This document shows positions 7,243-10,886 of a DNA stretch of 64,000 nucleotides, piece by piece. Each line of letters begins with the position of its first letter. The stretch's first letter is position 1. Position numbers and translations under genes: made by a program. A model generated the notes under the pieces. It was given only the letters and a program-made list of their open reading frames with translations, made no database searches and was not told the DNA's origin. Source of the stretch: Modestobacter roseus (GTDB taxonomy: Bacteria; Actinomycetota; Actinomycetes; Mycobacteriales; Geodermatophilaceae); assembly GCF_007994135.1 (NCBI RefSeq), contig NZ_VLKF01000001.1, positions 2,976,001 to 3,040,000 of the forward strand, read 5' to 3'.

Positions 7243-9534
7243 CTACAGCTTGACGAGCGGGGCGTAGCGCAGCACCAGGCGCTTGGTGCCGCCGGAGCCG
7301 AAGTCGACCGTCGCCTGCGCCTTGTCGCCGGCGCCGTTGACCTCGACCACGGTGCCCAGCCCGAAGGCGTCGTGGCTGACCCGGTCGCCGACGTCGACGC
7401 TGATCACGGCGCGGTTGCCCGCCCCGCCGCGCAGCCCGCCGGTGGACAGGCCGGTGGCGGCGACCCGCTGCTGCGCCGAGGACAGCGGCACGGTGGGTGT
7501 CGGCTGCAGGTTGGCCCACTGCACGGTGTCGCCGGGCAGCTCGTCGAGGAACCGGGACGGCGGGTTGTAGGCCGGCTGACCCCAGTTGGTGCGCACGGTG
7601 GCCCGGGAGAGGAACAGCCGCTGCTGCGCCCGGGTGATGCCCACGTAGGCCAGCCGCCGCTCCTCCTCCAGCTCCTTGGGGTCGCCGAGCGCCCGCAGGT
7701 GCGGGAAGACGCCGTCCTCCAGGCCGGTGAGGAACACGACCGGGAACTCCAGTCCCTTGGCCGTGTGCAGGGTCATCAGGGTGACCACGCCCGCGTCGTC
7801 CCCGGTGACGGGGATCTGGTCGGCGTCGGCCACCAGGGAGACCTGCTCCAGGAAGTCGGTGACCGTGCCGCCCGGCGAGGCGGCCTCGAACTCGGCGGCC
7901 ACCGAGATGAGCTCGTTGAGGTTGTCGACCCGCCCCTCGTCCTGCGGGTCGGTGCTGGCCGAGAGCTCGGCGAGGTACCCGGTGCGGTCGAGGATGCTCT
8001 CCAGCAGCGCGGCCGGCCCCGACCCGGTCTCGACCAGGTTCTCGAACTCCTCCAGCAGCGCGACGAACTCCTGCAGCGCCTTGAGGGAGCGGGGGGCGAG
8101 CGTGGTGATCTCGGCGCAGCGGCGCAGCGCGGTGCCGAAGGCGATCCGCTCACGGTCGGCGAACTGCTCGACGCTGGACTCGGCCTTGTCGCCGATCCCC
8201 CGCTTGGGCACGTTGATGATCCGGCGCAGGCTGACGACGTCGGCCGGGTTGGCGACGAGCTTGAGGTAGGCCAGCGCGTCGCGGACCTCCTTGCGCTCGT
8301 AGAAGCGCACCCCGCCGACGACCTTGTAGGGCATGCCGACCCGGATGAACACCTCCTCGAACACCCGGGAGGCGTTGTTGGTGCGGTAGAAGACCGCGAT
8401 GTCGGCCGGCCGGGCCTTGCCCTCGTCGGTGAGCGCGTCGATCTGCTCGGCGACCCAGGCGGCCTCGTCGTGCTCGTTCTCGGCGACGTAGCCGGAGATC
8501 AGCTCGCCGTCGCCGGCGTCGGACCACAGGTTCTTCGGCCGGCGGGCGGTGTTCTTGGCGATGACGGTGTTGGCGGCCCGGAGGATCCGCTGCGTGGAGC
8601 GGTAGTTCTGCTCCAGCACGATCGTCGTCGCGTCGGGGTAGTCGCGTTCGAACTCGTCGATGTTGCGGATCGTGGCGCCGCGGAAGGCGTAGATCGACTG
8701 GTCGGCGTCGCCGACGACACACAGCTCGGCCTGGGGCACCGGCCCGCCGGGCCCACCGGCGAGCTCCCGCACGAGCATGTACTGGGCGTGGTTGGTGTCC
8801 TGGTACTCGTCGACCAGCACGTGCCGGAACCGGCGCCGGTAGTGCTCGGCGACGTCCGGGAACGCCTGCAGCAGGTGCACCGTCGTCATGATCAGGTCGT
8901 CGAAGTCCATCGCGTGGGCCTCGCGCAGGCGCCGCTGGTAGAGCGTGTACGCCTCCTTGAGCACCTTCTCCGGCGCCGTCTGGGGGCTGAAGGACTCCTC
9001 GTCGACCAGCTCGTTCTTCAGGTTCGACACCTGGTTGGACAGGCTGCGCCCGGGATACCGCTTGGCGTCCAGGTCGAGGTCGCGGGCGACCATCGTCATC
9101 AGGCGCACCGAGTCGCCCTGGTCGTAGATGGTGAAGGAGCTCTTCATCCCGAGCTTCGCGGCCTCGGCGCGCAGGATGCGCACGCACATCGAGTGGAAGG
9201 TCGACACCCACATCGCCCGCGCGCGGGGCCCGACGAGCGCGGCGACGCGCTCCTTCATCTCCCCGGCGGCCTTGTTCGTGAAGGTGATCGCCATGATCTC
9301 GCCGGGCTGCACCCCACGGGCGCCGAGCAGGTAGGCGATCCGGTGGGTGAGCACCCGTGTCTTGCCCGAGCCCGCCCCGGCCACGATGAGCAGCGGGCTG
9401 CCCTCGTGGACGACGGCGTCGCGCTGCGGCCCGTTCAGGCCGGCGAGCATCCGGTCGAGCTCCCGACCGGGCTGGCCGGGGGTGGAGCGGGCGAGCGCGG
9501 CGGTGCCGGGGAGGGAGATCTGCGGGCTGCTCAT
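7243..9534 (-). CDS. pcrA: ATP-dependent DNA helicase PcrA/UvrD
   Basis: A 763-residue superfamily 1A 3'-5' helicase for nucleotide-excision repair, replication restart and removal of RecA. Motif I is GAGSGKT (about 54-60), motif II VDEYQDTN, motif III GDADQSIYAFRGA, motif IV QNYRST, and motif V-VI TAHTAKGLEFPVVF-like and VGITRA. The C-terminal tail carries the Tudor-like segment (VGDRVSHDAFGLGTVVEV) that binds RNA polymerase in PcrA. The ATG at 9534 is 9 nt from a TAGAGT hexamer (9544-9549), suggesting a very short leader. Confidence 0.96.
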   Translation of the reverse strand: MSSPQISLPGTAALARSTPGQPGRELDRMLAGLNGPQRDAVVHEGSPLLIVAGAGSGKTRVLTHRIAYLLGARGVQPGEIMAITFTNKAAGEMKERVAALVGPRARAMWVSTFHSMCVRILRAEAAKLGMKSSFTIYDQGDSVRLMTMVARDLDLDAKRYPGRSLSNQVSNLKNELVDEESFSPQTAPEKVLKEAYTLYQRRLREAHAMDFDDLIMTTVHLLQAFPDVAEHYRRRFRHVLVDEYQDTNHAQYMLVRELAGGPGGPVPQAELCVVGDADQSIYAFRGATIRNIDEFERDYPDATTIVLEQNYRSTQRILRAANTVIAKNTARRPKNLWSDAGDGELISGYVAENEHDEAAWVAEQIDALTDEGKARPADIAVFYRTNNASRVFEEVFIRVGMPYKVVGGVRFYERKEVRDALAYLKLVANPADVVSLRRIINVPKRGIGDKAESSVEQFADRERIAFGTALRRCAEITTLAPRSLKALQEFVALLEEFENLVETGSGPAALLESILDRTGYLAELSASTDPQDEGRVDNLNELISVAAEFEAASPGGTVTDFLEQVSLVADADQIPVTGDDAGVVTLMTLHTAKGLEFPVVFLTGLEDGVFPHLRALGDPKELEEERRLAYVGITRAQQRLFLSRATVRTNWGQPAYNPPSRFLDELPGDTVQWANLQPTPTVPLSSAQQRVAATGLSTGGLRGGAGNRAVISVDVGDRVSHDAFGLGTVVEVNGAGDKAQATVDFGSGGTKRLVLRYAPLVKL

Positions 9535-9638
9535 GACGTGGCCACTCTAGGCCGGGACACCGACATCGCCGGGGCCCGCGTGTCGGCCGCGGACGGCGTC
9601 GCTGGCCGCGCGCTCCCAGGTGTGGCAGACTCCACGAC

Positions 9639-9701
9639 GTGCTGACGCATCGCGAGTTTTACTACGGCCACCGGGTTCCGGTGTCCGTACTCGCTGGCTG
9701 A
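9639..9701 (+). CDS. Aromatic leader peptide, 20 residues
   Basis: GTG at 9639 opens a 20-codon frame ending in TGA at 9699-9701. Residues 7-9 are Phe-Tyr-Tyr (TTT TAC TAC). TTT is a rare Phe codon in this genome, and the GTT, GTA and GCT codons downstream are also unusual for it. The start is 7 nt after the CAGACT hexamer, so the mRNA is probably leaderless. The peptide is expected to act in cis through its translation, not as a product. Confidence 0.7.
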   Translation: MLTHREFYYGHRVPVSVLAG

Positions 9702-9718
9702 TCAGCCACCGCACACGA

Positions 9719-9748
9719 CGCCCCGGGCCCAAGGCCCCGGGGCGTTTT
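9719..9748 (+). terminator. Intrinsic terminator of the attenuator
   Basis: A 9-bp GC stem (CGCCCCGGG, 9719-9727, with CCCGGGGCG, 9736-9744) is followed by TTTT at 9745-9748. It is one of the few hairpins in the window with a T-run. It lies 47 bp before the chorismate mutase start. Confidence 0.8.
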
Positions 9749-9795
9749 CCGTCTCTCCCGGGTCCGACGGCCTCCCGCCCGCCCCGGAGGACCCC

Positions 9796-10086
9796 ATGAC
9801 CACCAGCCTCTCCCCCAGCGCCACCGCCCCGCCCGACGCCGACCCGGCCGCGCGGATCGACGCGCTGCGCGCCGAGATCGACGCCTGCGACGCCCAGATC
9901 ATCGAGCTGGTCCAGCGCCGGCTGTCGGTGGCGCAGGAGATCGGCGCGCTCCGCACCGCCTCCGGTGGCATGCGGCTGTCGCTCTCCCGCGAGCAGCGGG
10001 TGCTCTCCCGCTTCCGCACCGCGCTGGGCCCGGACGGTGCCGCGCTCGGCATGATGCTGCTCCGCCAGGGCCGCGGCCGGCTGTGA
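9796..10086 (+). CDS. Chorismate mutase, AroQ-delta type
   Basis: A 96-residue all-helical chorismate mutase converting chorismate to prephenate, the branch step to Phe and Tyr. It resembles the secretion-free mycobacterial enzyme (Rv0948c type): IDALRAEIDACDAQI, LVQRRLSVAQEIG, SGGMRLSLSREQRVL and a C-terminal MLLRQGRGRL. The mycobacterial protein ends GRLGH, and that tail mediates activation by DAHP synthase; here the last two residues are missing. GGAGG is 6 nt before the ATG. Control by the upstream attenuator fits its position in aromatic amino acid synthesis. Confidence 0.9.
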   Translation: MTTSLSPSATAPPDADPAARIDALRAEIDACDAQIIELVQRRLSVAQEIGALRTASGGMRLSLSREQRVLSRFRTALGPDGAALGMMLLRQGRGRL

Positions 10087-10135
10087 CGGCGGGCGGTCCG
10101 GGACGGCCTCAGGGCGGGCCCGGGACCCGGCGGCC

Positions 10136-10141
10136 TAGGCT
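10136..10141 (+). promoter_or_regulatory. -10 element of a leaderless promoter
   Basis: TAGGCT is followed by 7 nt and the GTG at 10149. No ribosome binding site is seen upstream of that codon, so transcription and translation probably start together. Confidence 0.5.
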
Positions 10142-10148
10142 GCCGCGC

Positions 10149-10886
10149 GTGATGCCGCTGCCCACCGCCCCCGCCGAGCACGTCGAGCGCGCCCTGTGCG
10201 TGCTGGCCCACCCCGACGACGTCGACTTCGGCAGCGCCGGGACCGTCGCCACCTGGACCGCGGCCGGCACCGAGGTGACGTACCTGATGGTCACCGACGG
10301 CGACGCCGGCGGGTTCGACGACACCCCCCGGGAGCGGATGGGCCCGCTGCGCCGCGAGGAGCAGACCGCGGCCGCCGCCGCGGTCGGGGTGACCGACGTC
10401 CGCTTCCTCGGCTACCCCGACGGGCGGTTGGAGCCCTCCCTCGACCTGCGCCGGGACATCAGCCGGGTGATCCGCCAGGTGCGTCCCCAGCGGGTGCTCA
10501 CGAGTTCCCCCGAGCGGTTCTGGGAGCGGATCGGCGCCAGCCACCCGGACCACATGATCGTCGGCGAGTCGACGCTGCGCGCCGTCTACCCCGACGCCCG
10601 CAACCCCTTCGCCTTCCCCGAGCTGCTGGCCGACGAGGGCCTGGAGGCCTGGACGGTGTCGGAGGTGTGGCTGGGCGGCGGCCCCCGCTCGGACCACGCC
10701 GTCGACGTCACCGACGTGCTGGACCGCAAGCTCGCCGCGCTGCGGTCGCACGTCAGCCAGGTGTCCCACTGGCCCGAGGGTCAGCTGGCGGAGTTCCTCA
10801 CCGGCTGGATGCAGCAGAACGCGCGCACGCACGGCCTGCCCGCCGGCCGTGTCGCCGAGGCGTTCCAGGTCGTGCACACCGCCTAG
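10149..10886 (+). CDS. PIG-L family zinc deacetylase
   Basis: A 245-residue LmbE/PIG-L-type N-deacetylase. The signature AHPDDVDFG (about 20-28) and the later SHPDH supply the zinc ligands and the catalytic Asp. In actinobacteria relatives include MshB (mycothiol) and Mca, but it lacks features that fix the substrate. The start at GTG 10149 is favoured by the -10 element; an ATG follows immediately at 10152, and the frame is open upstream to the chorismate mutase stop. Its TAG stop overlaps the stop codon of the convergent response regulator. Confidence 0.85.
   Translation: MMPLPTAPAEHVERALCVLAHPDDVDFGSAGTVATWTAAGTEVTYLMVTDGDAGGFDDTPRERMGPLRREEQTAAAAAVGVTDVRFLGYPDGRLEPSLDLRRDISRVIRQVRPQRVLTSSPERFWERIGASHPDHMIVGESTLRAVYPDARNPFAFPELLADEGLEAWTVSEVWLGGGPRSDHAVDVTDVLDRKLAALRSHVSQVSHWPEGQLAEFLTGWMQQNARTHGLPAGRVAEAFQVVHTA

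Follow-up and report, generated by a model that had tools for sequence, protein, structure and literature searches.

A probable phenylalanine- and tyrosine-sensing transcription attenuator ahead of a stand-alone chorismate mutase gene in actinobacteria

In enteric bacteria, the attenuators of pheA and pheST have Phe codons in their leaders, work through a switch between an antiterminator and a terminator, and control the Phe branch of chorismate metabolism. The enteric pheA leader has its own ribosome-binding site, and pheA encodes a fused mutase-dehydratase. Both attenuators are mentioned in the available part of PMC11802643, which also describes attenuation by the aroR leader of Corynebacterium glutamicum as responding to Phe limitation and not to Tyr. 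The aroR leader contains a Phe-Tyr-Phe run and precedes aroF, a DAHP synthase gene (PMC4046766, available part). Leaders of trp, ilvB, leuS and trpS are also known in Actinobacteria, and several S. lividans leaders are described as leaderless (PMC1262725 for the former, PMC8079986 for both, in the portions accessible). For ilvB1 of M. tuberculosis, the accessible text of PMC13236596 gives experimental support for ribosome stalling on an upstream ORF, an antiterminator and a Rho-independent terminator.

For the Phe and Tyr genes of this group, the accessible sections of a 2005 actinobacterial survey report no conserved RNA structure upstream of Phe/Tyr operons (PMC1262725). Table 4 of an S. lividans RNA-seq study, in the portion accessible, gives eight leader peptides and none for chorismate mutase (CM), Phe or Tyr (PMC8079986), and the word chorismate is absent from the main text of PMC13236596. 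A CM attenuator was not found in the open literature searched; two papers that might describe one are Neshat et al. 2014 and, for Actinoplanes, Wolf et al. 2017. Rfam 15 at the gathering score gives 0 matches in the window (the whole 64,000-nt stretch of DNA analysed) and 0 in 18 relatives. A permissive Rfam scan peaks at 22.5 bits, where 34.9 would be required, with a ribosomal-protein leader read from the opposite strand.

The leader unit and its conservation

The locus is made up of the following features, in which strands 1 to 4 are the successive arms of the leader RNA.

7243-9534, - strand: pcrA/uvrD, the neighbour on the 5' side of the leader unit
9621-9748, + strand: leader unit, promoter through terminator
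9621-9631, + strand: promoter -10 region TGTGGCAGACT with hexamer CAGACT at 9626-9631, 7 nt ahead of the GTG
9639-9701, + strand: leader ORF, GTG to TGA, 20 codons, MLTHREFYYGHRVPVSVLAG, without a Shine-Dalgarno sequence and probably leaderless
9657-9665, + strand: regulatory codons TTT TAC TAC (Phe-Tyr-Tyr), from direct reading and codon counts
9663-9689, + strand: hairpin 1:2 (strand 1 at 9663-9674, strand 2 at 9678-9689), from folds and covariation
9673-9688, + strand: antiterminator 5' arm, formed by strand 2 and the loop of hairpin 1, from ribosome-masked folds and covariation
9695-9708, + strand: palindrome TGGCTGATCAGCCA over the stop codon, from folds and comparison across loci
9699-9701, + strand: leader stop TGA, from direct reading
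9715-9730, + strand: antiterminator 3' arm, which includes the terminator 5' arm (strand 3), from masked folds and covariation
9718-9748, + strand: intrinsic terminator ACGCCCCGGGCCCAAGGCCCCGGGGCGT with U-run TTTT at 9745-9748, from folds and shuffle comparison
9786-9791, + strand: GGAGGA, Shine-Dalgarno sequence of CM, from direct reading
9796-10086, + strand: CM gene, monofunctional, high-GC Gram-positive type, ATG at 9796, from profile matches
10083-10886, + strand: PIG-L family protein gene, whose start overlaps the last CM codons

An earlier sequence-only reading had placed the -10 element, the 20-codon leaderless frame, the Phe-Tyr-Tyr codons, the hairpins, of which the first spans 25 nt at 9664-9688, the T-run terminator and a 47-nt gap between the end of the T-run and the CM start codon, and direct reading of the letters returns the same positions. 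The CM product scores 99.6 bits against NF005894 (cut-off 73) and 74.8 bits against TIGR01808 (cut-off 52.15) and also matches PF01817; its best relatives are Modestobacter records, and the genome is of Geodermatophilaceae type. In profile searches the PIG-L family protein does not reach the cut-off of BshB, MshB or Mca, and its gene may be co-transcribed with CM and share the attenuator. A promoter and terminator scan found neither at the locus: no hexamer pair fits the scanner's consensus, and the terminator is missed because the scanner wants 5 T per 8 bases and the U-run has 4.

Conservation was assessed in 160 regions upstream of CM, drawn from relatives of the CM protein, two further genome searches and 40 extra upstream stretches. 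A clear CM match is present in 52 of the 148 genomes of the class sample and in 178 of the 200 genomes of the order sample; the scan covered only such genomes, and among them the best-matching or chosen ones. Using a search pattern derived from these very sequences, a leader is recognised upstream of CM in 146/160 actinobacterial loci, the window included, or in 141/151 once nine loci known to be second copies of a genome already counted are removed (a leader is present in five of these and absent from four). Four of the 146 leaders (L090, L091, L107, L158) are doubtful and are omitted from most later counts, including that of families, in which 15 of the 17 having a locus examined carry a leader. 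Family and genus labels (f1, f2, g3 and so on) are arbitrary numbers of the genome sample.

The CM protein search accounts for 63 loci. All 57 Geodermatophilaceae loci with upstream DNA have the leader, as do L059, L060 and L061; L043 comes without upstream DNA, and no leader is seen within 330 nt in L062 or L063, which belong to other phyla. Named genera among the loci are Modestobacter, Blastococcus, Geodermatophilus, Klenkia, Actinoplanes and Micromonospora. The 14 loci in which no leader is recognised comprise 13 of f2 (L066, L071-L073, L075, L114-L118, L120, L123, L159) and one of f49 (L150). The f2 cases include all 12 loci of genera g3, g5, g6 and g136 plus one of g2, and apparently reflect, like the f49 case, loss or strong divergence of the leader. 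A covariance model built from 38 CM leaders finds a single strong match in the window's own 4.5 Mb genome (E 8e-25). The other own-genome matches at E <= 1 are two opposite-strand fragments of the same site (E 0.0099 and 0.018) and a fourth match elsewhere (E 0.22), where a scan showed no aromatic leader.

The terminator is conserved along with the frame. The RNA 9639-9760 of the window folds as three hairpins at -59.6 kcal/mol, compared with a mean of -43.75 for dinucleotide shuffles (z -4.13, 2/200 as good). A hairpin of -12 kcal/mol or lower, followed by 3 or more T within 8 bases, is found in 139/146 leaders and in 74/146 controls with one shuffle per locus, which leaves seven leaders with no terminator hairpin at -12 kcal/mol. 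A perfect-stem finder, since superseded by this fold-based one, had given 87/146. The sequence-only reading had held that lack of conservation of the small frame or the terminator in related genomes would tell against it, and both recur. The hairpin over the stop codon, which it had counted as part of the attenuator, drops out, as the palindrome is perfect in just four of the loci with a leader: the window, L002, L006 and L007. It is lineage-specific and probably incidental. Its candidacy as an operator or a required hairpin was rejected for want of conservation.

Alternative pairings of the leader RNA

Hairpin 1:2 and the terminator form in the free window RNA. When a ribosome is masked at F7, Y8 or Y9 and the RNA is cut before the terminator 3' arm, 9673-9688 pairs with 9715-9730 in a 2:3 antiterminator that encloses the stop-codon hairpin, with fewer 2:3 pairs at Y8 and Y9 than at F7. 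A fold with the ribosome placed at codons 7-9 had been proposed as a check in the sequence-only reading, and it does give a switch from 1:2 to 2:3 in the truncated RNA; the antiterminator itself was absent from that reading, emerged from the masked folds and covaries. When the full-length RNA is folded, the terminator prevails whatever the ribosome state, so the switch relies on co-transcriptional timing.

The same folds were applied to 135 loci, five second copies included. The free state gives 1:2 in 123 loci, the stalled state gives 2:3 in 129, and 118 show both; the corresponding fractions for 810 shuffled leader segments are 0.225, 0.546 and 0.130. With the ribosome placed at the stop codon under an assumed footprint, a second fold proposed at the outset, 2:3 is still possible in 29/135. 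These include 11 of 12 in f53, where termination would then need ribosome release and re-formation of 1:2. In the same family, 12/14 loci have a strand 2 (GGACTCCGG) that is the exact complement of strand 3 (CCGGAGTCC), even though 10 of the 12 terminators found leave the A of strand 3 unpaired, which argues for selection on the antiterminator itself.

Energies of the 2:3 duplex clearly beat shuffles in few families. Median z values are -3.57 in f53, -2.4 in f48, -2.1 in f33, -1.56 in f20, -1.5 in f2, -1.39 in f3 and f51, -0.98 in f43, -0.84 in f23, -0.55 in f1 and -0.53 in f44, and are positive in f37 (+0.21), f41 (+0.91) and f19 (+1.98). Since base composition alone yields much of the pairing, covariation is relied on rather than duplex energies.

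When 38 loci spanning ten families are aligned, compensatory changes appear in all three helices, 1:2, 2:3 and 3:4; 43 loci had been picked, five from f48 and f20 were left out, and f19, f33 and f49 lie outside the selection. Measured against shuffled controls that keep composition and not phylogeny, the 1:2 and 3:4 helices together have 89.7% of cells paired (shuffles 83.9 +/- 0.6, 0/500 as high) and two-sided changes in 7/20 pairs (8/500 as high). The 2:3 helix has 84.9% of cells paired (shuffles 77.1 +/- 1.1, 0/500 as high) and two-sided changes in 5/8 pairs (0/500 as high). Slid by -1, 2:3 still has 71% paired, which reflects its repetitive GC-rich arms. A separate count covering more loci dropped f20 and f19 entirely, together with 13 named loci; a further six, which lack the strand-3 motif, were dropped for 2:3. 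In this count, two-sided changes are not above shuffles (421/1000 as high for 1:2, 380/1000 for 2:3), the fraction paired is matched in 0/1000 for both helices, and pair types in 8/1000 and 2/1000, respectively.

The covariation also bears on whether control might be translational, with stalling opening or closing the Shine-Dalgarno sequence of CM. Translation attenuation is reported for mycobacterial cysteine genes in the accessible text of PMC13236596. Such control would suit the U-run, which is short in the window (4 T), short or broken in several groups and interrupted in f2, and a fold of the window RNA downstream of the terminator, in which GGAGGAC is paired. It is nevertheless improbable, as the alternative partner that covaries is the terminator arm and not the Shine-Dalgarno sequence, the leader stop and the CM match lie between 37 and 335 nt apart depending on the locus, and a strong hairpin with a T-rich tail is conserved at -17 kcal/mol or lower in 136/146 leaders compared with 37/146 shuffled ones.

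Leader codons and leaders before other genes

The usual set for counting consists of 142 leaders, of which five come from second copies. In 133/142 leaders the hexamer [TC]ANNNT precedes the start by exactly 6 or 7 nt, whereas such a hexamer lies 5-8 nt ahead of 19/1880 other RTG positions in the same regions; the comparison is tempered by the fact that the -10 was taken into account when leader starts were chosen. No leader start (0/142) is preceded by a Shine-Dalgarno-like motif. In Actinobacteria, a -10 to start geometry of this kind usually means a leaderless transcript, and the leader transcript would accordingly begin at or near the GTG. Together with the conservation of codons, this geometry suggests that the leader is translated.

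Both Phe and Tyr codons occur in 142/142 leaders, as the search pattern favours, and at least one TTT lies at or before the Tyr codon in 138/142. The sequence-only reading's description of TTT as a rare Phe codon holds for Geodermatophilaceae, where rarity was gauged in pcrA stretches alone: TTT makes up 56/65 Phe codons of the leaders and, in pcrA stretches taken from 56 of these loci, 6/1332 Phe codons. The leader TTT may act either through slow decoding or as part of a U-rich RNA element. The conserved FYY leader looked for across Actinobacteria is found as a leader, and its codon cluster varies, for example to FFYG. The core reads FYYGHR.PVSV.AG in f1, FFYG.RTPAPV in f53, FFYGYRIPVPVSG in f43, FFYGYRSAVPV in f2, FYYGTGSPAAVGRA in f3, FFYGSGHPAAV in f51 and F(L/V)FTYG.RP.GCHGRAA in most of f20, which appears to be Streptomyces-like.

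Conservation beyond the Tyr codon discriminates between a signal in the RNA and a signal in the nascent chain. Within Geodermatophilaceae the peptide sequence shows very strong conservation, as would be expected if nascent FYYGHR.PVSV itself stalled the ribosome in answer to a signal other than aminoacyl-tRNA. The residues after Tyr differ in other families, however, and the hairpin is kept: in f20 (YGNRPTGCHGRAA) and f3/g117 (YGTERPSRRSR) its second arm lies in another frame register, and in f19 (YGDRARSPL) the residues differ through other codons. The Pro codon is CCG in 98/98 cases and the Arg codon CGG in 110/121, as RNA pairing demands. The register shift and the fixed codons argue for selection on the RNA, and peptide-specific arrest is very unlikely.

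The CM-leader model matches 201/394 genomes of the class at E <= 0.01, a figure that overstates the spread of the leader because 8 of the 20 matches inspected show no convincing one. The other 12 are one Thr leader and 11 aromatic leaders by DAHP-synthase-like genes, seven of the latter identified by eye as in-frame ORFs, along with L215, and three (L197, L203, L204) by other-frame likeness only. Among the matches listed, 20 that were picked out end 20-91 nt upstream of a DAHP synthase match. The downstream gene piece matches DAHP synthase families below the full-length cut-offs (130 residues given), and the enzyme is presumably of type I-beta. By eye, 27/50 DAHP synthase upstream stretches show an aromatic leader, two of the 50 (L237, L248) being almost without upstream DNA. 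Trp occurs in the codon cluster of 23/27 DAHP synthase leaders vs 2/142 CM leaders, with a pattern that admits Trp and with many close relatives among the DAHP leaders. CM supplies Phe and Tyr only, whereas DAHP synthase supplies all three aromatics; the presence of Trp codons before DAHP synthase and not before CM thus indicates that codon content follows the pathway. The DAHP synthase query used finds no match in the genome of the window itself.

Several actinobacterial families contribute to the aromatic leaders seen before DAHP synthase (L198, L199, L200, L201, L207, L211, L215, L216, L217-L228), which mostly contain Trp codons, as in FWRFYG, WSFWYG, FWFWYG and WFFSYY. At L214 (G435:C23:12875-14565), the leader MQRAHVTTTPDTVPAR, at 90-140 of the locus, precedes a gene for threonyl-tRNA synthetase, identified by a partial thrS match. 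It is likely a Thr attenuator and resembles thrL in the accessible portion of Table 4 of PMC8079986 for S. lividans.

A gene for a small RNA or small protein, expressed constitutively and unrelated to CM control, would likewise have its own promoter, ORF and terminator, yet is extremely unlikely given that the unit stands ahead of CM in 146/160 loci and that similar units precede DAHP synthase, with codons that track the enzyme's place in the pathway.

Proposed mechanism and relation to known systems

The leader unit is very probably a classical ribosome-mediated transcription attenuator of CM that senses charged tRNA-Phe and tRNA-Tyr. Three features of this class are present in the locus: a cluster of end-product codons, mutually exclusive 1:2, 2:3 and 3:4 pairings from folding and covariation, and a predicted terminator. 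Phe/Tyr leader-peptide attenuation of a stand-alone CM, the central proposal of the sequence-only reading, thereby gains support from conservation and from the covarying antiterminator.

In the proposed mechanism, transcription would start at the GTG or within a nucleotide or two of it, and the ribosome would load on the leaderless 5' end. When Phe and Tyr are plentiful, the ribosome would pass the FYY codons and reach the stop. Hairpin 1:2, the form expected without a stalled ribosome, would then re-form behind or after it, leaving strand 3 free for strand 4, and the 3:4 terminator would halt RNA polymerase ahead of CM. When charged Phe- or Tyr-tRNA is short, the ribosome would stall on TTT TAC TAC and cover strand 1, in which case strand 2 would pair with strand 3, no terminator would form and CM would be transcribed.

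A wider reading, for and against which the case is evenly poised, is that a single ancient attenuator runs through the class Actinomycetes as the main transcriptional control of Phe and Tyr synthesis. It would have been retuned for each gene, to Phe/Tyr before CM and to Phe/Tyr plus Trp before DAHP synthase, with a nearly obligatory UUU that sets the sensitivity. If true, this would supply the main transcriptional Phe/Tyr control in a group where the published survey found none. A single leader design before CM in 15/17 families stands against what the accessible sections of that 2005 survey report (PMC1262725). The codon content of a leader would predict the amino acids to which each gene answers, the CM-leader model is ready for annotation, and the leaders may be relevant to strains producing aromatic compounds.

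Among known systems, the enteric pheA and pheST attenuators share with this unit the Phe codons, the antiterminator/terminator switch and the Phe branch of the pathway. Unlike enteric pheA, the unit has both Phe and Tyr codons, a probable leaderless start and a stand-alone mutase. The actinobacterial trp, ilvB, leuS and trpS leaders resemble it, as far as the accessible text describes them, in having a short ORF of sensed codons, hairpins and often a terminator, but they sense other amino acids. The ilvB1 leader of M. tuberculosis, in its accessible description, follows the same attenuator logic in the same class of bacteria and differs in answering branched-chain amino acids. C. glutamicum aroR is likewise an actinobacterial aromatic leader peptide with attenuation, in the accessible descriptions, and precedes DAHP synthase where the present unit precedes CM. 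The kind of attenuator is therefore known from trp, pheA and C. glutamicum aroR, and its stand-alone CM member, judged from sequence comparison, appears to be both new and widespread.
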